From positions 1 through 64,000 of the forward strand of contig PLYN01000024.1 of NCBI GenBank assembly GCA_003151815.1: a DNA stretch of 64,000 nucleotides, in the 5' to 3' direction. A program made the translations under genes and the position numbers. This DNA is from Bacteroidota bacterium. GTDB taxonomy: Bacteria > Bacteroidota > Bacteroidia > 2-12-FULL-35-15. Below, piece after piece: positions 43,276-57,380 of this stretch. The first letter of the stretch is position 1; the number at the start of each line of letters is the position of its first letter. The notes under the pieces were generated by a model that was not told where the DNA came from, did no database searches, and was given only the letters and a program-made list of their open reading frames with translations.

Positions 43276-43761
43276 TTAAGTAAGAGTATTTAATTTTGCA
43301 TTAATGCTAGTGGTTGTGTGAGGAACGCTTCTTAGTCTTTCCTTTGGAATTAAGTCCCCTGTAATCCTGCATGTTCCATACGTTTTATTTTCTATTCGAA
43401 TCAATGCATTGTTAAGATGCTGAATAAATTTTTCTTGTCTTATGGCATGTTGCGCAGTTTCTTCTTTTGATATAACATCACTTGCATCCTCAAGGACTTT
43501 AAAAGTAGGTGAAGTGTCATTCGTGCCATTATCATCCCGAAGTGAAAGGGTACTTTTTAAAAGTTCATAGTCTATTTTCGCCTCACCAAGCTTCGCCAAA
43601 ATTAATTCTTTGAATTCTCTAAGTTCCTCATCCGAAAGTCGAACTTGTGTATCCTCATTTTTAGGAGTGGAGATAGGTTGAGTTACTTTTGCTTCAACCA
43701 TAATTGGCATTATCACCATTTTGGACTCCGTCGCTTGTTTTGCCATTTTATTATTTTTCAT
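43276..43761 (-). CDS. DksA/TraR-family protein with a degenerate zinc finger
   Basis: FIQHLNNALIRIENKTYGTCRITGDLIPKERLRSVPHTTTSINAKLNTLT: TraR/DksA C-terminal pattern with only one Cys. Confidence 0.75.
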   Translation of the reverse strand: MKNNKMAKQATESKMVIMPIMVEAKVTQPISTPKNEDTQVRLSDEELREFKELILAKLGEAKIDYELLKSTLSLRDDNGTNDTSPTFKVLEDASDVISKEETAQHAIRQEKFIQHLNNALIRIENKTYGTCRITGDLIPKERLRSVPHTTTSINAKLNTLT

Positions 43762-43867
43762 ATGTTTGATCTTTTATGATGTTGTTATTTTTTAAATTTA
43801 ATAAGCTTAGAATAATCGGATAAAATTTATTAATGCAAAGGTAATTTGACTAATAACAATGATCTTC

Positions 43868-43930
43868 CATTTTTCGTTTAGTTCTCTCATAAAATAGCCA
43901 AAAACTATTAAATAGTCGGTGGTGATATAA
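43868..43930 (+). promoter_or_regulatory. Intergenic element copy A (TTTTTCGTTTAGTTC...ATAGCCAAAAACTATTAAATAGTCGGTGGTG)
   Basis: Shared with copies B and C. Confidence 0.55.
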
Positions 43931-44212
43931 ATTTTAAAAATCTGTCTACCAACTAGAATTATATAGTCATATAATATTAAGATTCTCTATGAGAAATTGC
44001 ATGAATCCCCTAAAAAGTCAAAATCATTATCTATTATCGTGCAAATTTCGATAGTCGGCGGCTCTGATATTATTTGAGAGGCTGGGACTTGCTCTGTTGT
44101 TTTGAAATTTTTCATGTCGCTGCATTTTTTATGATTTGTTTTTATTGAACAAGAATAAACTGATATTATAAATTACTTGTTCAAAAATAGTATCGTTTAT
44201 TTCTAATTCCTT

Positions 44213-44275
44213 CCTTTTTTCGTTTAGTTCGATTTAATAATAGCCAAAAAGTGTTAAACATTCGTTAGTAGAGTA
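44213..44275 (+). promoter_or_regulatory. Intergenic element copy B, upstream of the 1133-aa glycosidase
   Basis: ttttttcgtttagttcgatttaataatagccaaaaagtgttaaacattcgttagtag. Confidence 0.55.
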
Positions 44276-44310: not shown

Positions 44311-44358
44311 AATCGACTAAAGGGAATAAAAAATCGCTAAGAACAATAAATGAATTGC
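44311..44358 (+). promoter_or_regulatory. 21-bp-phased direct-repeat triplet (AATCGA-N15-AATCGC-N15-AATTGC)
   Basis: 44311-44316, 44332-44337, 44353-44358; spacing exactly 21 and 21 bp. Confidence 0.55.
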
Positions 44359-44398
44359 CAAAAACGTTTTTAGACAAATAAACATTTAATCATAAAAA

Positions 44399-47300
44399 AT
44401 GAAAAACATAAAAAAAATTATCAAAGTAAGTTTACTTACAGTTGGGTTTTTACTTTCTGTAAAAAGTAGTTACTCACAATTGATCTCGGATCATTTTTTT
44501 GGTGAAAACACCTGGATGCCGGATACCATTGGTGATTACAAAGCGTGTAAAGAGCCGCCATGTATTTTATATGGTAAATTGCATAAACAATGGAGCAACA
44601 TTAAAAGTAGTGGAGCATCAATTGTTCGTTTTGGAGGTATTGCAGCTGACAAAAACATGCCAACTAATTATCAATATATAAAGATGATCGATTCCATTCG
44701 TGCAAAAGGTATGGAGCCAATTATTCAAGTTCCATTTTGTAATAATCGTTATACCGCTCAACAAGCAGCCGATATTGTTAAGTATATAAATATTATTAAA
44801 GGCAAAAAAATTAAATACTGGATCATTGCAAACGAACCTGATCTGAGTTATTCCTTCACTACTTCTTCACAAATAGCGCAATATTTTAAACCTTTTGCTT
44901 CAGCAATGAAAGCAGTGGACCCATCCATCCTTATTGTGGGGCCCGAATGTGCCTGGTTTAATCAAACCATTTTAACAGGTTTAACAACTCCGAATGGTCC
45001 TGATGACATTACAGGTAAAGATGCATCCGGAAATTATTACCTTGATATTATTTCTTTTCATACTTATCCTTTTGATGGAACTCAAACTAGAGCTGATGTT
45101 GTTTCAAAATTAACAGCTCCCAATTCATTAAATGAGAATTTGGCTTATCTAAACACTCGTGTAGCTAATTGTAATTCTGCGCATAATAGAACAGGTGTAG
45201 CATTACTAAAGACAGCTATTACAGAGGCGAATATAAATTGGCAAAACAACACTTCAGATAATTTAAATGGCTTAGGTGCCAATAGTTTTATTGGTGGTCA
45301 ATTTATGGCGGAAATGATGGGCATTGGAATGAAAAATAATTTAGATTTTATTAATATCTGGAGTGTAATTGAAGGAAATTCAACGGCCAGCAATATTGGT
45401 TTTATAGATGCTACTACCAATAATAAAAAGCCATTGTATTATCATTTTAAACTTCTTGCCAACAATTTCAAAGGAAATTATTTGAACGGTATTACTAACC
45501 AGGTAAATGTTAAATCCTTTGGAAGTCAGAATGCGCAACAAACTTCAGTACTGATTTTAAATGAAGATCTTACCAATAATTATAATTTCACCGTTCGATT
45601 AGATAATTCAGCTATTTCAGGAAATGGTGGATTAAATATTAACATAAATGCAGGATTGAATAAAGAGTATTCCGGTGTTATTAGTAATCAGTCTACCACT
45701 ATTTTGAAGTTTGATGCGGCAGGAAATTTAATAGAAAAAACGGAATATAAACTTTCAGGAAATGCTGATGTCAATCTTGCTCCAACAGTTACAACATTGC
45801 CTTCTGCTTTGTCAGCAATAATTATTCCGGCTGCTTCAACTACCATTTGTTCTGGAAGCAGTGTAACATTAAATGCGAATGTTGGAACAGGTTATTCATA
45901 TCAGTGGAAAAAAGATAATACTTCTTTAGCGGGTGCTACCAACTCATCATATATAGCGAATGCCGCCGGAAATTATTCGGTTAGCATAACTTCCGCAGAA
46001 ATAACTACTACATCTGCAGCAACAACAATCACGTTATTGCCTGCTCCAATTGCTTCAATTACGCCTCAGGGTGCAACCTCATTTATTGCAGGTGATAGTG
46101 TTGTTTTAAATGCAACTACAGGAACAGATTACATTTACCAATGGAAAAAAGATAATATAGGTATTAATGGTGCAACTAACACTTCTTATGTTGCAAATCA
46201 GTCAGGGGCTTACCAAATAAAAACTACCTTGGGTATTTGCAACAATTGGTCTGCTCCACTATCAATTACTGTCTTTCCAAAAGCAACGATCACTGCTGCC
46301 GGTGCAACTAATTTTTGCTCAGGTGGAAATGTTAAGTTGAATGCAAATGTTGTTAAAGGATATGCTTATCAATGGAAAAAAGATAATGTTGCTATTGCCG
46401 GATCAACCGATTCATCTTACATTGCTATAGAATCCGGTGGTTATTCTGTTGTCGCAACTATTGCAGGCCTTACAACAACTTCAGGGATTCAAGTTATAAA
46501 AGTAACACCTTTACCTAGCGCTATTATAACAGCAGCAAGTGCAACTTCATTTGTTGAAGGTAATAGTGTAGTTCTAAATGCAACTACCGGAACAGGATAT
46601 ACTTATCAATGGAAAAAAGATAATGAACTTATAACAGGAGCTACCAATGGATCATATACAACTTCCATAGCCGGATCATACCAGGTAGAAATTACTTCAG
46701 AAATTTGTAAATCATTATCCGCTTCAGTTACCGTTGCTGTTCTGCCAATAGCGGTGATCACTGCAGCAGGTAGCACGAGTTTTTGTGCCGGAGGAAACGT
46801 AAGGTTGAATGCTAAAGTAATGACAGGGTATACGTTTCAATGGAAAAAGGATAATATCGAGATTGCCGGAGCAACCGATTCATTATACATTGCTGCTGCG
46901 TCAGGAAGTTATTCGGTGGTTGTAACTAAAGGAGGCAATACAAATACTTCAACAGCAATTGCCGTTACAGCAATATCTGTTCCTGTTGCAACAATTACTC
47001 CTTTAGGCGCAACAACAATATGTTCCGGTACTGTTGGTTTACAAGCAAATACGGGTTCCGGCTTGATCTATCAATGGAAAAAAGATAATAATGCAATAGA
47101 TGGAGCTACCAATTCTTCTTATTCAGCAACTGTTACAGGATCTTATCAAATAAGAGTTACACAAGGTTCATGCACATCGTGGTCAGCACCATTAAGTGTA
47201 AGTATTCAAGGTGATAAAAATGCCACGATAACACCGGATGGACCAATCACATTTTGTTCCGGTGGTAAAGTAGTATTGTATGCTAATACTTGTTCCGACT

Positions 47301-47800
47301 ATTTATATCAATGGAAGAAAAATGGAGCAAATATTAAAGGAGCAACTGCATCATCATATATTGCTACAACTTCCGGAAGCTATCAGGTAAAAATTACGTC
47401 AAGTGCATTCACAGAATGGTCGGCACCTTTATCGGTAACGGTTAATAACTGCAAGCCTTCCGGTTCAATTGCAAGTAAAGAATTGACTTTGGATTCAACT
47501 ACTGTTACATCTTTATCGAACGAGGAAAATGTTAATAGTATTTTTGAAATTAATGTATTTCCAAATCCATCAAATGGAAAATTTACGATACAATTAAGTA
47601 ATAAAAATTCCGAACAAAATAATATTGAAATTCAACTTATCAATTCTAACGGACAAGAGGTTTACCATGAAAACGGTAATTTCTTAAATGGCAAAGAAGA
47701 AATAATATTGGGAGACAATATTACATCCGGACTTTATATCATGAGAGTGATGGTTGGAAATAACATTATCATTAAAAGAATTATAATTAATAATCTTTAA
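44399..47800 (+). CDS. Secreted clan-A-like glycoside hydrolase with tandem Ig-like repeats and T9SS type-A CTD
   Basis: TIM-barrel-type sequence with YWIIANEPDLSY (candidate acid/base) and LLKTAITEANINWQN (candidate nucleophile); Ig-like repeats ('YQWKKDNxxIxGATxSSYxA') at about 45820-47450; CTD VFPNPSNGKFTIQL...IIIKRIIINNL. Confidence 0.8.
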   Translation: MKNIKKIIKVSLLTVGFLLSVKSSYSQLISDHFFGENTWMPDTIGDYKACKEPPCILYGKLHKQWSNIKSSGASIVRFGGIAADKNMPTNYQYIKMIDSIRAKGMEPIIQVPFCNNRYTAQQAADIVKYINIIKGKKIKYWIIANEPDLSYSFTTSSQIAQYFKPFASAMKAVDPSILIVGPECAWFNQTILTGLTTPNGPDDITGKDASGNYYLDIISFHTYPFDGTQTRADVVSKLTAPNSLNENLAYLNTRVANCNSAHNRTGVALLKTAITEANINWQNNTSDNLNGLGANSFIGGQFMAEMMGIGMKNNLDFINIWSVIEGNSTASNIGFIDATTNNKKPLYYHFKLLANNFKGNYLNGITNQVNVKSFGSQNAQQTSVLILNEDLTNNYNFTVRLDNSAISGNGGLNININAGLNKEYSGVISNQSTTILKFDAAGNLIEKTEYKLSGNADVNLAPTVTTLPSALSAIIIPAASTTICSGSSVTLNANVGTGYSYQWKKDNTSLAGATNSSYIANAAGNYSVSITSAEITTTSAATTITLLPAPIASITPQGATSFIAGDSVVLNATTGTDYIYQWKKDNIGINGATNTSYVANQSGAYQIKTTLGICNNWSAPLSITVFPKATITAAGATNFCSGGNVKLNANVVKGYAYQWKKDNVAIAGSTDSSYIAIESGGYSVVATIAGLTTTSGIQVIKVTPLPSAIITAASATSFVEGNSVVLNATTGTGYTYQWKKDNELITGATNGSYTTSIAGSYQVEITSEICKSLSASVTVAVLPIAVITAAGSTSFCAGGNVRLNAKVMTGYTFQWKKDNIEIAGATDSLYIAAASGSYSVVVTKGGNTNTSTAIAVTAISVPVATITPLGATTICSGTVGLQANTGSGLIYQWKKDNNAIDGATNSSYSATVTGSYQIRVTQGSCTSWSAPLSVSIQGDKNATITPDGPITFCSGGKVVLYANTCSDYLYQWKKNGANIKGATASSYIATTSGSYQVKITSSAFTEWSAPLSVTVNNCKPSGSIASKELTLDSTTVTSLSNEENVNSIFEINVFPNPSNGKFTIQLSNKNSEQNNIEIQLINSNGQEVYHENGNFLNGKEEIILGDNITSGLYIMRVMVGNNIIIKRIIINNL

Positions 47801-47810
47801 ATATATTTTT

Positions 47811-47847
47811 AAAAAACCTATCCTGAGATCAGGATAGGTTTTTTTAA
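47811..47847. terminator. Intrinsic terminator
   Basis: AAAAAACCTATCCT (47811-47824) / AGGATAGGTTTTTT (47831-47844), perfect 14-bp stem. Confidence 0.8.
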
Positions 47848-47882
47848 TTTTAATTACCATAGTGTAAAGTAATTTAATACTT

Positions 47883-48290
47883 TCAATTCACGGAGAGATG
47901 AAGATCTTTATTGCATCTTCTGGACTCATATTGTATACAGTGCTTTACCTTTTTCAATAAAGTGTCCAATTCATAAGGTTTAACAAGATAATCATCAGCA
48001 CCTTGTTCCAACGCTCTGGTTAAATAATTTTTTTCAGACATTGTAGTACTAAAAATAAATGGTATTAGAGATGTTTGAGCCGTTTCCGAAAGAAATCGAA
48101 GAACTTCGTAACCATCCATTTTTGGCATTAAAATATCACAAACTATTAAATCAGGAATAAACTTGTTGGCAAGTTCAAGTCCGATTTTTCCATTATTTGT
48201 TCCAAGTATATTATAACCTTCTATTTCGAGATATTCAGTCAAATTCTCTAGAAAATCATTGTTATGTTCAATCAGCAAAATTGTTTTCAT
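47883..48290 (-). CDS. Response regulator receiver-domain protein
   Basis: MKTILLIEHNNDFLENLTEYLEIEGYNILGTNNGKIGLELANKFIPDLIVCDILMPKMDGYEVLRFL...ADDYLVKPYELDTLL. Start moved to 48290 from the track's 48350. Confidence 0.93.
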   Translation of the reverse strand: MKTILLIEHNNDFLENLTEYLEIEGYNILGTNNGKIGLELANKFIPDLIVCDILMPKMDGYEVLRFLSETAQTSLIPFIFSTTMSEKNYLTRALEQGADDYLVKPYELDTLLKKVKHCIQYESRRCNKDLHLSVN

Positions 48291-48350
48291 AGTCGTTTGA
48301 TTATTTGTGGTTGCAATTGCAATGATAGTCCTGCCTCCCCTTTGCTTCAT

Positions 48351-48412
48351 TTCTTTTTCGTTTAATTCTTATTTATAATAGCCAAAAACTGTTAAATAGT
48401 CGTTGGTGGCAT
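48351..48412 (+). promoter_or_regulatory. Intergenic element copy C, upstream of the 575-aa glycosidase
   Basis: tctttttcgtttaattcttatttataatagccaaaaactgttaaatagtcgttggtgg. Confidence 0.55.
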
Positions 48413-48447
48413 AACATTAGTAATATATGCTCGTAATACGAACAGTG

Positions 48448-48495
48448 AATCGCCGAAAGGGAGATTAAAATCGCCCAGAACAATAAACGAATCGC
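48448..48495 (+). promoter_or_regulatory. 21-bp-phased direct-repeat triplet (AATCGC-N15-AATCGC-N15-AATCGC)
   Basis: 48448-48453, 48469-48474, 48490-48495; spacing exactly 21 and 21 bp, in the same context as 44311-44358. Confidence 0.6.
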
Positions 48496-48525
48496 TAATG
48501 AGTTTTTTAAACTAAATCATATATC

Positions 48526-50253
48526 ATGAAAAACATAAAAAAAATATTTCAAGTAAGTTTACTTACAATGAGTTTGTTTTTTTCAATGAAGAGTGGTTAT
48601 GCACAAGTAATTTCAAATCATTTTTTTGGTGAAAATGCATGGATGCCTGATACCATTGGGGATTACCAAGCATGTAAAGAACCACCATGTATTTTAAATG
48701 GTAAACTGCATAAACAATGGGGCAACATTAAAAACAGTGGAACATCCATTGTTCGTTTTGGAGGTATTGCTCCTGATAAAAATATGCCAACCAATTATCA
48801 ATACATCAAGATGATTGATTCCATTCGTGCAAATGGTATGGAGCCAATAATGCAAGTACCTTTTTATAATAACCGTTATACAGCTCAACAAGCAGCGGAT
48901 ATTGTTAAATTTATAAATGTTACAAAAAACGAAAAAATTAAATACTGGATCATCGCGAATGAACCCGATCTAGGTTATTCTTATACTACTTCGGCACAGA
49001 TAGCTCAATATTTTAGACCATTTGCTTCAGCTATGAAAGCGATTGATCCATCCATCTTGATTATCGGACCTGAAATATCAAGTTTTAATCAAACTATAAT
49101 GAATGGTTTAACAACACCAAATGGACCAGATGATATCACAGGAAAAGATGCATCAGGAAATTACTACCTCGATGTTATTTCTTTTCATACCTATCCTTTT
49201 AATGGAAGTCAAACCAGAGCACAAGTTGTTTCAAAATTAACGGCTCCCTATTCTTTGAATGATAATTTAATTTATCTAAACACCAGAGTAGCTGCTTGTA
49301 ATATCGCTCATAATAGAACAGGAGTAGCACTTCTTAAAACAGCTATTACAGAGGCGAATATCAATTGGCAAAATAGTGCTTCTGATAATTTATCCGGCGT
49401 AGGTGCCAATAGTTTTATTGGAGGTCAATTTATTGCTGAAATGATGGGTATTGGAATGAAGAATAGTGTAGATTTTATTAATATATGGAGTGTCGTAGAA
49501 GGAAATTCAACAGTCAGTAACGTTGGTTTTATAGATGCCACTACGTATAATAAAAAACCTTCATTTTTTCATTTTAAACTTCTTGCCGAAAATTTTAAAG
49601 GAAATTACGTGAACGGTATTACCAATCAGTCAAACGTAAAATCCTTTGGAAGTCAAGATGCTCAACAGGTTTCCGTTTTGATTTTAAACGAAGATCAAAC
49701 CAATAATTATAATTTTACTGTTCGTTTAAATAATGATAAGGCTAATGTAAACAATGCATTAATAATAAATATTAATGCAGGTATCAGCAAAGAATATGTA
49801 GGTAAAATATCAAGTCAATCTTCTGTATTGCTTATTTTTAATGCTTCAGGAGATATTATTAAGAAGTATGAATATTCACTTAATGACAATGCAATGGCTA
49901 ACCTTGCGCCTACTTATACAGAATTCGCTTCTACAGTTATAACTCCTCCTGCTCCTGCTACTGATTCTGCAGTTGTAGCAACAACTATAAATGGGATTAG
50001 CAATGATTCTGAAATGAAAGTATTTCCAAATCCTTCAAACGGAAAGTTTACCATTCAATTTAATAATGAAAATTCCGAGCTAAAGAATATTCAACTTATT
50101 AATACAATCGGACAAGAGGTTTATAGCAAAAGCTCAACCTTCATAGGTGGTAACGAAGAAATAGAATTAGAAGGCAACATAGCCGCCGGAGCTTATATAT
50201 TGAGGGTGATGGACGGAAAAAATACAACAACAAAAAAAATTATCATCAATTAA
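48526..50253 (+). CDS. Secreted clan-A-like glycoside hydrolase, paralog of 44399-47800 without the Ig repeats, T9SS type-A CTD
   Basis: YWIIANEPDLGYSYTTSAQIAQYFRPFASAMKAIDPSILIIGPE; LLKTAITEANINWQN; CTD VFPNPSNGKFTIQFNNENSELKNIQLINTIGQEVY. Confidence 0.85.
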   Translation: MKNIKKIFQVSLLTMSLFFSMKSGYAQVISNHFFGENAWMPDTIGDYQACKEPPCILNGKLHKQWGNIKNSGTSIVRFGGIAPDKNMPTNYQYIKMIDSIRANGMEPIMQVPFYNNRYTAQQAADIVKFINVTKNEKIKYWIIANEPDLGYSYTTSAQIAQYFRPFASAMKAIDPSILIIGPEISSFNQTIMNGLTTPNGPDDITGKDASGNYYLDVISFHTYPFNGSQTRAQVVSKLTAPYSLNDNLIYLNTRVAACNIAHNRTGVALLKTAITEANINWQNSASDNLSGVGANSFIGGQFIAEMMGIGMKNSVDFINIWSVVEGNSTVSNVGFIDATTYNKKPSFFHFKLLAENFKGNYVNGITNQSNVKSFGSQDAQQVSVLILNEDQTNNYNFTVRLNNDKANVNNALIININAGISKEYVGKISSQSSVLLIFNASGDIIKKYEYSLNDNAMANLAPTYTEFASTVITPPAPATDSAVVATTINGISNDSEMKVFPNPSNGKFTIQFNNENSELKNIQLINTIGQEVYSKSSTFIGGNEEIELEGNIAAGAYILRVMDGKNTTTKKIIIN

Positions 50254-51140: not shown

Positions 51141-51352
51141 ATTTCCTGTTTACTTGCTTCGCTACCCTTCACAAAGAAATCAATCAGGCAATACAAATTT
51201 AAACTATCACGATAACTATTAAGATTCCTGTTTGGGCTATTGAAAATACCGCATCACCGAATACTGCTTTGTGGATACCCTTTTCTCTAATAGATTTGTT
51301 AGCGGAAGAAAATATGTTCATCATCTAAAAAGCAAAATATCAATAAATATCA

Positions 51353-52651
51353 ATGAAAAACCAGTTGCCAAAAGTTTTAATGTTAGGTTGGGAATTTCCA
51401 CCGATAATTAATGGAGGGTTAGGAGTTGCATGTCATGACCTTTCTTGTGCCATGTCAGAGTTGGCAAATATTACAATGGTTGTGCCCAAATCCAGTCCCG
51501 ACTTTAAAGTGAAAAACATGAACTTAATTGGTATCAACAATATCGATCCCAATAGCTATGCGGATTCTTTTGATAATTCTTTCAATAACAAATTACCTTT
51601 CAAACTTCACTCAGTTCCTTCCGATCTTAATCCATATCATTCAGAGGCAATAAATTCTCACAATAACCCACATGGTTATAGGGATTCAAGTGTGATGGGT
51701 GGAAGTGAAATGAGAGAATCTTTTAATATTGATAATTTATATGGAGGTGATGTTATTAATAAAGTTTTTCAATATGCTGAGATCACTTCCAACCTTGCTG
51801 CTAAAATCGATTTTGATGTTATTCATGCACATGACTGGATGACGATGCTTGCAGGTATTAAAATAAAACAACAAACAGGAAAACCTTTAGTGATGCATAT
51901 TCATTCTTTGGAAGTTGATAGGAGTGGGGTGGATAGTACAGGATGGGTGTATGACCTTGAAAAAAAAGGAATGGAATATGCTGATCTATTAATGCCGGTG
52001 AGCAATTTTACGGCAAATAATATTCATCAGTATTATGGAATAAAAAAAAATAAAATGTCTGTAATACACAATGGTAGTATTGTTGTAGAACCATTTAAAA
52101 GTAAAAGAACATTCAAAGAAAAAACAGTTTTATTTGTTGGTCGTCTTACAAGACAAAAAGGACCCGAAAGATTCTTGGATATCGCGTCAAAGGTGTTGGA
52201 AAAAAATCCTGATGTTAGATTTGTAATGGCAGGTGTTGGAGATTATTTTAAATCAATGCTTGAACAAAGTTCATATAAACATATTGGCAATCGTTTTCAC
52301 ATGACCGGATTTTTAAATCAGGAAAAACTTAGGTATTTGTTTTCTGTTAGTGATGTTTATTGCATGCCTTCCGTATCTGAACCTTTTGGATTATCTGCTG
52401 TTGAAGCAGCTCAATTTGGAATTCCTTGTGTTATTTCCAAACAATCGGGAGTAGCAGAGGTATTAAGTGGAGCATTAAAATTTAATCATTGGGATGTAAA
52501 CAAGGCTGCCAGTGACATTTTAAATTTACTAAGCGATTCCGTTCTAAGGAAGAAAGTAGTTGAGGATGCTTCCCATAATTTGCAAAATATAACCTGGAAT
52601 AATTCAGCACAAAAAATTATGAATGCCTATTCGTCAAACAATTTTATTTAA
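51353..52651 (+). CDS. Glycosyltransferase, glycogen-synthase-like (GT4/GT5 type)
   Basis: KVLMLGWEFPPIINGGLGVACHDLSCAMSELANITMVVPK; VLFVGRLTRQKGPERFLDIA; YCMPSVSEPFGLSAVEAAQFGIPCVISKQSGVAEVL. Confidence 0.9.
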   Translation: MKNQLPKVLMLGWEFPPIINGGLGVACHDLSCAMSELANITMVVPKSSPDFKVKNMNLIGINNIDPNSYADSFDNSFNNKLPFKLHSVPSDLNPYHSEAINSHNNPHGYRDSSVMGGSEMRESFNIDNLYGGDVINKVFQYAEITSNLAAKIDFDVIHAHDWMTMLAGIKIKQQTGKPLVMHIHSLEVDRSGVDSTGWVYDLEKKGMEYADLLMPVSNFTANNIHQYYGIKKNKMSVIHNGSIVVEPFKSKRTFKEKTVLFVGRLTRQKGPERFLDIASKVLEKNPDVRFVMAGVGDYFKSMLEQSSYKHIGNRFHMTGFLNQEKLRYLFSVSDVYCMPSVSEPFGLSAVEAAQFGIPCVISKQSGVAEVLSGALKFNHWDVNKAASDILNLLSDSVLRKKVVEDASHNLQNITWNNSAQKIMNAYSSNNFI

Positions 52652-52656
52652 ACATC

Positions 52657-53961
52657 ATGCCATCTATCTGCTTTTATTTTCAAGTACACCAACCCTTTAG
52701 AATAAGGGATTATTCTTTTTTTGATATTGGGAATTCTCATGTTTATGAGGATGATAAAAAGAATGAGGAGGTTTTAAACAAGGTAGCTGATAAATGCTAT
52801 ATCAAAACCAATCAAAAAATGTTGGAGCTCATTCATCGGCATCAAGGAAAATTTAAAATAAGTTATTCTTTAAGCGGAACAGCTATAGAGCAATTTGAAA
52901 AATACAGACCCGATGTTTTACAATCCTTTATTGACCTTGCAAATACAGGTTGTGTAGAATTTTTATCGGAAACATATTCCCATTCACTTAGTTTTATTTA
53001 TTCTAAAAATGAATTTAAAAGGCAAGTAGAAAAACATGCGCAAGTAATTAAAAAATATTTTAATCAGGTTCCGAAAGTTTTCAGAAATACGGAATTAATT
53101 TACAATAATGAATTGGCTTCATTTATTGAAGGTATGGGTTATAAAGGCATAATATGCGAAGGTGTCGACAGATTGCTCAATGGTAGAACTCCCAATTTTC
53201 TATATCAGCCGGTTGGAGCGAAAAATGTAAAATTATTATTAAAGAACTATACCCTATCAGATGATATTGCTTTTAGATTTTCCGATAAAGGCTGGAAAGA
53301 ATTTCCATTAACGGCAGATAAATTTAAAAACTGGGTGCATGATGTTGCCGGCAACGGTGAAACGGTGAATTTGTTCATGGACTATGAAACCTTTGGTGAA
53401 CACCAATGGGAGTCAACAGGAATTTTTAATTTCCTGGATCAGCTTCCCACTGAAATTTTAAAACATCCCGACTTTGATTTTAAAACTCCTTCTGAAGTTA
53501 TTGACTCTTATCCTGCAAGAGAAGTTTATGATGCACACGATTTTACTTCATGGGCAGACACGGAAAGAGACCTTTCTGCCTGGTTAAGCAATTCCATGCA
53601 AAAGGAATCCATTCAACGAATTTATTCTATTGAAAAAGATATATTGGCTTGTGGAGATCCTTCATTATTAAAGGTATGGGAACGACTTCAAACATCAGAT
53701 CATTATTATTATATGTGTACCAAATTTTGGAACGATGGAGATGTACATAAATATTTCAGTCCTTTTGATTCACCTTATGATGCCTATATGTATTTTATGA
53801 ATGTGTTCAGCGATTTAGAATGTTCATTGAAAGAGTTGCGCCTATCTAAAGAAAAGGCAGACAAAAAATCAAAAAAAATCGACCAACTGGCAGACATCTT
53901 AGCGTTTGGGAAGGAAGTAAAAATTAAACCGGTTAAAAAAAATAAATTGATATTGAATTAA
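52657..53961 (+). CDS. Glycoside hydrolase family 57 (alpha-amylase-like)
   Basis: MPSICFYFQVHQPFRIRDYSFFDIGNSHVYEDDKKNEEVLNKVADKCY; VNLFMDYETFGEHQWESTGIFNFLDQLPTEIL. Starts 5 bp after the GT gene. Confidence 0.93.
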   Translation: MPSICFYFQVHQPFRIRDYSFFDIGNSHVYEDDKKNEEVLNKVADKCYIKTNQKMLELIHRHQGKFKISYSLSGTAIEQFEKYRPDVLQSFIDLANTGCVEFLSETYSHSLSFIYSKNEFKRQVEKHAQVIKKYFNQVPKVFRNTELIYNNELASFIEGMGYKGIICEGVDRLLNGRTPNFLYQPVGAKNVKLLLKNYTLSDDIAFRFSDKGWKEFPLTADKFKNWVHDVAGNGETVNLFMDYETFGEHQWESTGIFNFLDQLPTEILKHPDFDFKTPSEVIDSYPAREVYDAHDFTSWADTERDLSAWLSNSMQKESIQRIYSIEKDILACGDPSLLKVWERLQTSDHYYYMCTKFWNDGDVHKYFSPFDSPYDAYMYFMNVFSDLECSLKELRLSKEKADKKSKKIDQLADILAFGKEVKIKPVKKNKLILN

Positions 53962-56862: not shown

Positions 56863-56993
56863 TAAAAAATGTATAAGAGTTTTCCCGATAACCATTTTAA
56901 TTACTCCTTAGACTATTTTAAATCCCTTCTCAACGAATATGTAAAACGGAAACAAAATCCTTAAATATCTTTATAAAAATAATTAGGGCTATC

Positions 56994-57380
56994 ATGAAAA
57001 ATAAAAATCAATTACCTTTTATGTATTATGAATTAATTAACAAAAAATTATTCCTTCTTCTGTTAATAGTGATTCTATTTATAGCATTAAAATCAAATGC
57101 TCAAACCGTTTCATCTCCAAAAAATATTGATGAAGTTGAAGTTGTAAGTGATGAGTTAAATAATAAAATGAATATAGAATTTAGCACAGAAAAGGAAATA
57201 TATAATTTGTTGGTTTTAATTACAGATAGTCTTGGGCAAACTGTTTTCCTTGATAATCGTTATCGTTTTAAAGGAGATTATAAGCATAGTATTGACTTTA
57301 AAAACTATAATAAAGGACCGTATTCAATTAAAATAATTGGTGATAATGAAAAGATCATTAAAAAAGTTGATGTAAAATAA
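56994..57380 (+). CDS. Small secreted protein made essentially of a T9SS type-A-like C-terminal domain
   Basis: Signal segment LFLLLLIVILFIALKSNAQ, then NKMNIEFSTEKEIYNLLVLITDSLGQTVFLDNRYRFKGDYKHSIDFKNYNKGPYSIKIIGDNEKIIKKVDVK. Confidence 0.6.
   Translation: MKNKNQLPFMYYELINKKLFLLLLIVILFIALKSNAQTVSSPKNIDEVEVVSDELNNKMNIEFSTEKEIYNLLVLITDSLGQTVFLDNRYRFKGDYKHSIDFKNYNKGPYSIKIIGDNEKIIKKVDVK

Follow-up and report, generated by a model that had tools for sequence, protein, structure and literature searches.

Two genes for glycosidase-like secreted proteins in a 64,000-nucleotide stretch of DNA from a Bacteroidota bacterium (positions 1 to 64,000 of contig PLYN01000024.1, assembly GCA_003151815.1; hereafter, the window) are each preceded by three short boxes phased at 21 bp, and these triplets are very probably operator arrays of a LytTR-type response regulator, with signalling, glycogen-type, Dps/Usp stress, and secreted-protein genes as its predicted targets. 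The triplet of gene 1 (array B, 44311..44359, plus strand) consists of AATCGAC at 44311, AATCGCT at 44332, and AATTGCC at 44353, and that of gene 2 (array B, 48448..48496, plus strand) of AATCGCC at 48448, AATCGCC at 48469, and AATCGCT at 48490. The phasing reported in the initial annotation could be read directly from the sequence in both cases, the steps being exactly 21 bp, and the distance of 30–40 bp to the ATG that it gave was also correct, the final 6-nt box ending approximately 40 nt before the ATG at 44399 and approximately 30 nt before that at 48526. The genome scan that it had proposed, conducted with (AATYGM-N15)2-AATYGM over the whole 2.53-Mb assembly, returned these two places only, and matches were found neither to the reversed pattern in the same assembly nor to the triplet pattern in 100 dinucleotide shuffles of the window.

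The annotation had taken the spacing kept in two leaders as evidence for a regulatory site. The spacing is indeed kept, but the leaders, with 72% identity over approximately 160 bp, are homologous to each other and, hence, their common phase is not independent evidence; evidence of selection on the leader comes instead from approximately 15 homologs in other genomes. The triplets, although real, were also found to be incomplete, being the downstream halves of a longer leader. Approximately 70 bp upstream of array B, each gene has a second array of three boxes, which is designated array A: TTTCGTT at 44218, AATAGCC at 44239, and ATTCGTT at 44260 for gene 1 (44218..44266, plus strand), and TTTCGTT at 48356, AATAGCC at 48377, and AGTCGTT at 48398 for gene 2 (48356..48404, plus strand). 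A lone array A (43872..43920, plus strand) lies beside them, with TTTCGTT at 43872, AATAGCC at 43893, and AGTCGGT at 43914. These three further arrays in or beside the same two leaders had been overlooked, as had two one-sided promoter arrays at 51214–51298 and 56911–56973, which are described below. Profiles were built from sequence only, R1 from array B and R2 from array A, and used to find further members in the genus; the E values in the window were 7.7e-10 and 3.4e-12 for array B of genes 1 and 2 with R1, and 1.1e-13, 2.9e-15, and 9.6e-11 for array A of genes 1 and 2 and the lone array, respectively, with R2. The 21-bp period is present in all five of these window arrays and across the homologs.

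The larger glycosidase-like protein (44399..47800, plus strand) has Ig-like domains and a Por sorting tail, and the smaller one (48526..50253, plus strand) has a Por sorting tail and a GH39 match that is weak and falls short of the Pfam cut-off. Homologs of the smaller protein were found in 14 genomes, 12 of which belong to the same genus, when 99 relatives were searched, and the public records matching the homologs are metagenome-assembled uncultured Bacteroidota. The leader is kept upstream of approximately 15 such homologs (approximately 60% protein identity) in related uncultured Bacteroidota, where array A has ATCGTT or ATAGCC, then ATAGCCAAAAnCTGTTAAA, and then a third box 21 bp further, the gap between arrays A and B is 70–72 bp in most cases, and array B consists of ATCGTTAAGAGGGG.., ATAGCC, and ATAGCC, with the start of its last box 36–65 nt from the ATG in most homologs. 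Read against these leaders, the AATCGC of the window is the local variant of a box that is usually AATAGCC.

Support for a DNA-bound regulator came from the arrays at other genes. Most of the non-glycosidase arrays matched by R1 or R2 in the genus directly precede a gene whose reading direction is opposite to theirs, so that in the sense of the target the array reads GGCTATT-N14-GGCTATT-N14-(A/C)CGAATAT. In 15 of 20 non-glycosidase matches, this is followed, 25–26 nt after the last box, by TAnnTTTG with at most one mismatch (approximately 0.02 per match expected by chance), the sequence that serves the primary sigma factor of Bacteroidota as its -7 element (PMC7366714, PMC9723704). Because they lie 25–26 nt upstream of the -7 box, the arrays at other genes are promoter-upstream DNA sites and not RNA. 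The suggestion of the initial annotation that a regulator lines one face of the DNA is thus supported, the same boxes being present upstream of the -7 element, on the non-transcribed side, at many promoters; they recur in related genomes both at further genes and at the glycosidase-like homologs. Its alternative, in which the triplets form a repeated site for protein binding within the 5' untranslated region (UTR) of the glycosidase mRNAs, is extremely unlikely. Array B, at 30–40 nt before the ATG, would be transcribed if the start were near array A; however, most other arrays are outside the transcript, single-strand folding of both leaders was no better than that of shuffles (z of −0.45 and 0.23), and there was no Rfam match at gathering thresholds.

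The arrays are associated with one clade of LytTR regulators. A response regulator opening with MNCIIVDD, which has a receiver and a LytTR domain, adjoins several array loci, and the likely best candidates for the binder are two such paralogs on the window's own contig, 40–50 kb away (G000:C13:97191-97889 and G000:C13:89562-90257). The motif (E<1e-4) was present in 11 of the 11 genomes with a strong full-length ortholog (at least 330 bits and at least 66% identity) and in 3 of the 25 others (Fisher P 6e-7), and the strong orthologs form a supported clade in a tree; in the genome G005, where the glycosidase lacks the leader, the regulator is represented only by a relative with 55% identity. Arrays were located within 500 bp of 7 of the 25 LytTR genes of this type, compared with 0 of the 44 other LytTR genes, a split that was made by similarity; in one borderline case, G003 was preferred to G002:C30, which leaves the count of 7 unchanged. 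Furthermore, when the distance from box to -7 element was left open over 25 values in 36 genus genomes, one sharp peak (total 61–62 nt) was observed in the 12 LytTR-clade genomes, comprising 44 of 52 pattern matches, whereas the remaining 24 genomes had none (2 of 38; difference P=7e-15); the twelfth genome, G017, which has a 74%-identical LytTR fragment, was counted with the clade in this comparison. The open reading frame (ORF) mostly starts 20–60 nt past the -7 box at these promoters, and the recurring orthologous targets are a glycogen-synthase-like gene, response regulators, Usp, ferritin-like proteins, and secreted proteins with Por tails or beta-propeller repeats.

It is very unlikely, in light of this geometry, that the similarity is no more than a functionless relic of gene duplication or of the spread of an intergenic repeat. 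The homology of the two window leaders would be in line with such a relic, as would the occurrence of array A both singly and in tandem (the lone window copy, matched at 43870, G015:C54, and G022:C527), but the boxes and distances are kept in the glycosidase-like homologs while the intervening sequence diverges, matches at unrelated genes share little except the boxes and the -7 distance, and genomes that lack the LytTR clade do not show the geometry. An origin of the arrays from a tandem repeat was also considered and dropped; a genuine tandem minisatellite, whose 21-bp unit begins with ATAGCC, was observed at G004:C45:242843-243079 and G004:C57:39456-39524 and is apparently unrelated to the promoter arrays. 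Across the genus, the counts of exact ATAGCC-N14-16-ATAGCC were mostly at chance and in most genomes did not clearly exceed those of the reversed control, the signal being separated from noise only by the profiles and the promoter-anchored pattern. Among 295 genomes of the class, the fixed-spacing pattern was at chance level or had at most 3 matches per genome outside this lineage; therefore, the regulon looks restricted to it. Three fixed-spacing promoter matches (C18:32931, C18:96642, and C34:31517) were found in G307, which belongs to another family of the class, and possibly represent a related regulon.

A different DNA-binding protein, co-inherited with the LytTR clade or encoded near it, could be the one that recognizes the arrays, and co-occurrence and neighbourhood are indirect indications of a binder, with response regulators and hybrid kinases being themselves frequent targets. 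We regard this as rather unlikely, as the proximity is specific, in the comparison among LytTR genes described above, to one clade and its near relatives, and as LytTR sites have the same geometry of direct repeats at 21 bp. The nearby response regulator of the window (47883..48290, minus strand; likely start ATG at 48290), which the initial annotation had proposed for binding assays, is rejected as the binder because it consists of a receiver domain only, and it is a probable target instead.

Several observations weigh against assigning the arrays to the LytTR regulator. In G003 and G016, the motif is accompanied only by 46–47% LytTR relatives; in G017, the clade's gene is represented by no more than a fragment, and the longest LytTR match of that genome falls outside the clade; and common ancestry of the genomes could account for part of the association with the clade. 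Agreement of the boxes with the broad LytTR consensus in the literature is only partial. At the glycosidase-like genes, the rightward -7 element, a YAAYTTT at a fixed 28 nt to the right of array A, is weak, the boxes are oriented oppositely to those at ordinary targets, and array B lies downstream of the presumed start, which is the wrong place for activation.

The arrays belong to a known kind, since their repeat length, spacing, and three-repeat form fit published LytTR operators: LytTR sites are repeats of 9–11 nt with spacers of 11–13 nt near promoters (PMC6193735, PMC4847170), and operators with three repeats have been described for RcoM1 and CoxC (PMC11347149). The literature offers no common consensus for LytTR sites, and agreement of the box with a published half-site, judged by eye, was partial (ACCGAATAT against ACCGCTTAT of BrsR). 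In the RcoM1/CoxC systems, three direct repeats with 12–13 bp spacers are bound by a LytTR domain near the promoter, as is predicted here, and the box cores end alike, with GC(A/N) there and GCC here; however, those systems are CO-responsive and belong to Proteobacteria, and CoxC is a membrane-bound MHYT-LytTR protein, whereas the candidate here is a receiver-LytTR response regulator of Bacteroidota with many targets and a different box (PMC11347149). The LytTR Regulatory System (LRS) HdrR/BrsR of Streptococcus mutans likewise uses direct repeats of 9 bp, mostly separated by 12 bp, that lie upstream of promoters, including at its own regulator locus, and the BrsR half-site agrees with the box at 7 of 9 positions, but the LRS pairs a LytTR regulator with a membrane inhibitor at sigma-70 -35/-10 promoters (PMC6193735). 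Unlike LRS regulators, the candidate has a receiver domain, and the arrays here often have three boxes and face the -7 box TAnnTTTG. YpdB of E. coli is a two-component LytTR response regulator that binds a 21-bp type direct repeat (GGCATTTCAT) cooperatively and sequentially, its box beginning with GGC as does GGCTATT here, although it has two boxes, few targets, and another organism and promoter type (PMC4847170). AgrA, also a LytTR response regulator, has direct repeats between divergent promoters near its own operon in the agr intergenic region, but these are centred near -60, compared with a last box near -42 here, and the sigma factor here is that of Bacteroidota (PMC4227749).

Predicted targets in the window were also identified on the leftward side of array A. 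The response regulator gene described above carries the same promoter architecture, with a -7-like box (TATCATTG, one mismatch; 48320..48327, minus strand) for leftward transcription from array A of gene 2, and a perfect box (TATTTTTG; 44182..44189, minus strand) is present for leftward transcription from array A of gene 1. The lone array serves the predicted leftward promoter of a gene for a DksA/TraR C4 zinc-finger-like protein (43276..43761, minus strand), a perfect TAnnTTTG (TACCTTTG; 43836..43843, minus strand) lying at the fixed distance from it. A leftward promoter from array A was rejected as a general feature of the homologs, the -7 box being present in both window copies and L060 and absent from most others.

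The two one-sided arrays are in the sense orientation. At 51214..51264 (plus strand), AACTATT at 51214, GGGCTATT at 51234, and ACCGAATAC at 51256 precede a perfect -7 box of the glycogen-synthase-like operon (TAGATTTG; 51291..51298, plus strand) and the predicted target, a starch/glycogen-synthase-like glycosyltransferase (51353..52651, plus strand), whose orthologs in G009, G012, and G018 have the same promoter. This gene is followed by one for a GH57-type-looking protein, the pair spanning 51353–53961, and its own array promoter suggests that storage glucan could be controlled by the same regulator. At 56911..56940 (plus strand), a two-box array (GACTATT at 56911 and AACGAATAT at 56932) lies upstream of a small secreted protein with a Por sorting tail (56994..57380, plus strand; predicted target), with a -7-like box (TATCTTTA, one mismatch; 56966..56973, plus strand) 25 nt past the last box. 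Elsewhere in the same genome, for which the claims come from searches plus individual stretches of the assembly, a Dps-like ferritin, a pair of STAS and cellulose-synthase-like proteins, and a hybrid kinase with Hpt are further predicted targets. One stretch (L142, G000:C40:1-20000) is a cluster of genes for hybrid histidine kinases, PAS kinases, and response regulators, and its intergenic regions hold five array copies, all in one orientation. In another (L144, G000:C13:84001-100471), a pair of LytTR response regulators, a hybrid kinase, an Hpt protein, and a cellulose-synthase-like glycosyltransferase accompanied by a STAS protein are grouped with facing array promoters. A secreted family with YDNFEGxKxxxYxxKxGVLDT near the N-terminus was also observed (L143 12589–13269, minus strand; L153 3293–3985, plus strand; L144 12405–13091, plus strand); an array precedes the gene in two genomes, and the L144 paralog is without a Pfam match.

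With regard to mechanism, the LytTR regulator would occupy adjacent boxes of approximately 9 bp, separated by spacers of approximately 12 bp, on one face of the DNA. At ordinary targets, where the array ends 25–26 nt upstream of TAnnTTTG with the last box at about -38 to -46, the promoter-proximal box would, judging from its position, replace the -33 element and help RNA polymerase. Such a position is usual for an activator that touches RNA polymerase. Array A of the glycosidase-like genes is also placed so that it could drive leftward transcription of the response regulator gene at 48290 and perhaps of the DksA-like gene, and it may act in both directions. Array B, lying between the presumed start and the ATG, could allow cooperative binding or looping with array A or present a roadblock to elongation. 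It is possible, and we propose only tentatively, that the LytTR regulator, fed by hybrid kinases some of which have arrays themselves, governs a regulon for general stress and carbon storage (Dps-like, Usp, and DksA-like proteins, glycogen-type enzymes, and Por-secreted enzymes) in this uncultured Bacteroidota lineage, with the array replacing the -33 element and a second array past the start adding a switch at secreted-enzyme genes.

LytTR regulators are common in these genomes, and, within the library of papers searched, no report defining a LytTR operator or regulon in Bacteroidota was found. The operator sequence, the promoter geometry in Bacteroidota, the proposed regulon, and the double-array leader thus appear to be new here. 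The operator, the exact promoter distance, the probable regulator, and approximately 50 target promoters were derived from sequence alone, and they offer a directly testable regulon in uncultured bacteria, the predicted targets of which are dozens of stress, storage-sugar, and signalling genes. The spacing rule may also serve for other LytTR clades.

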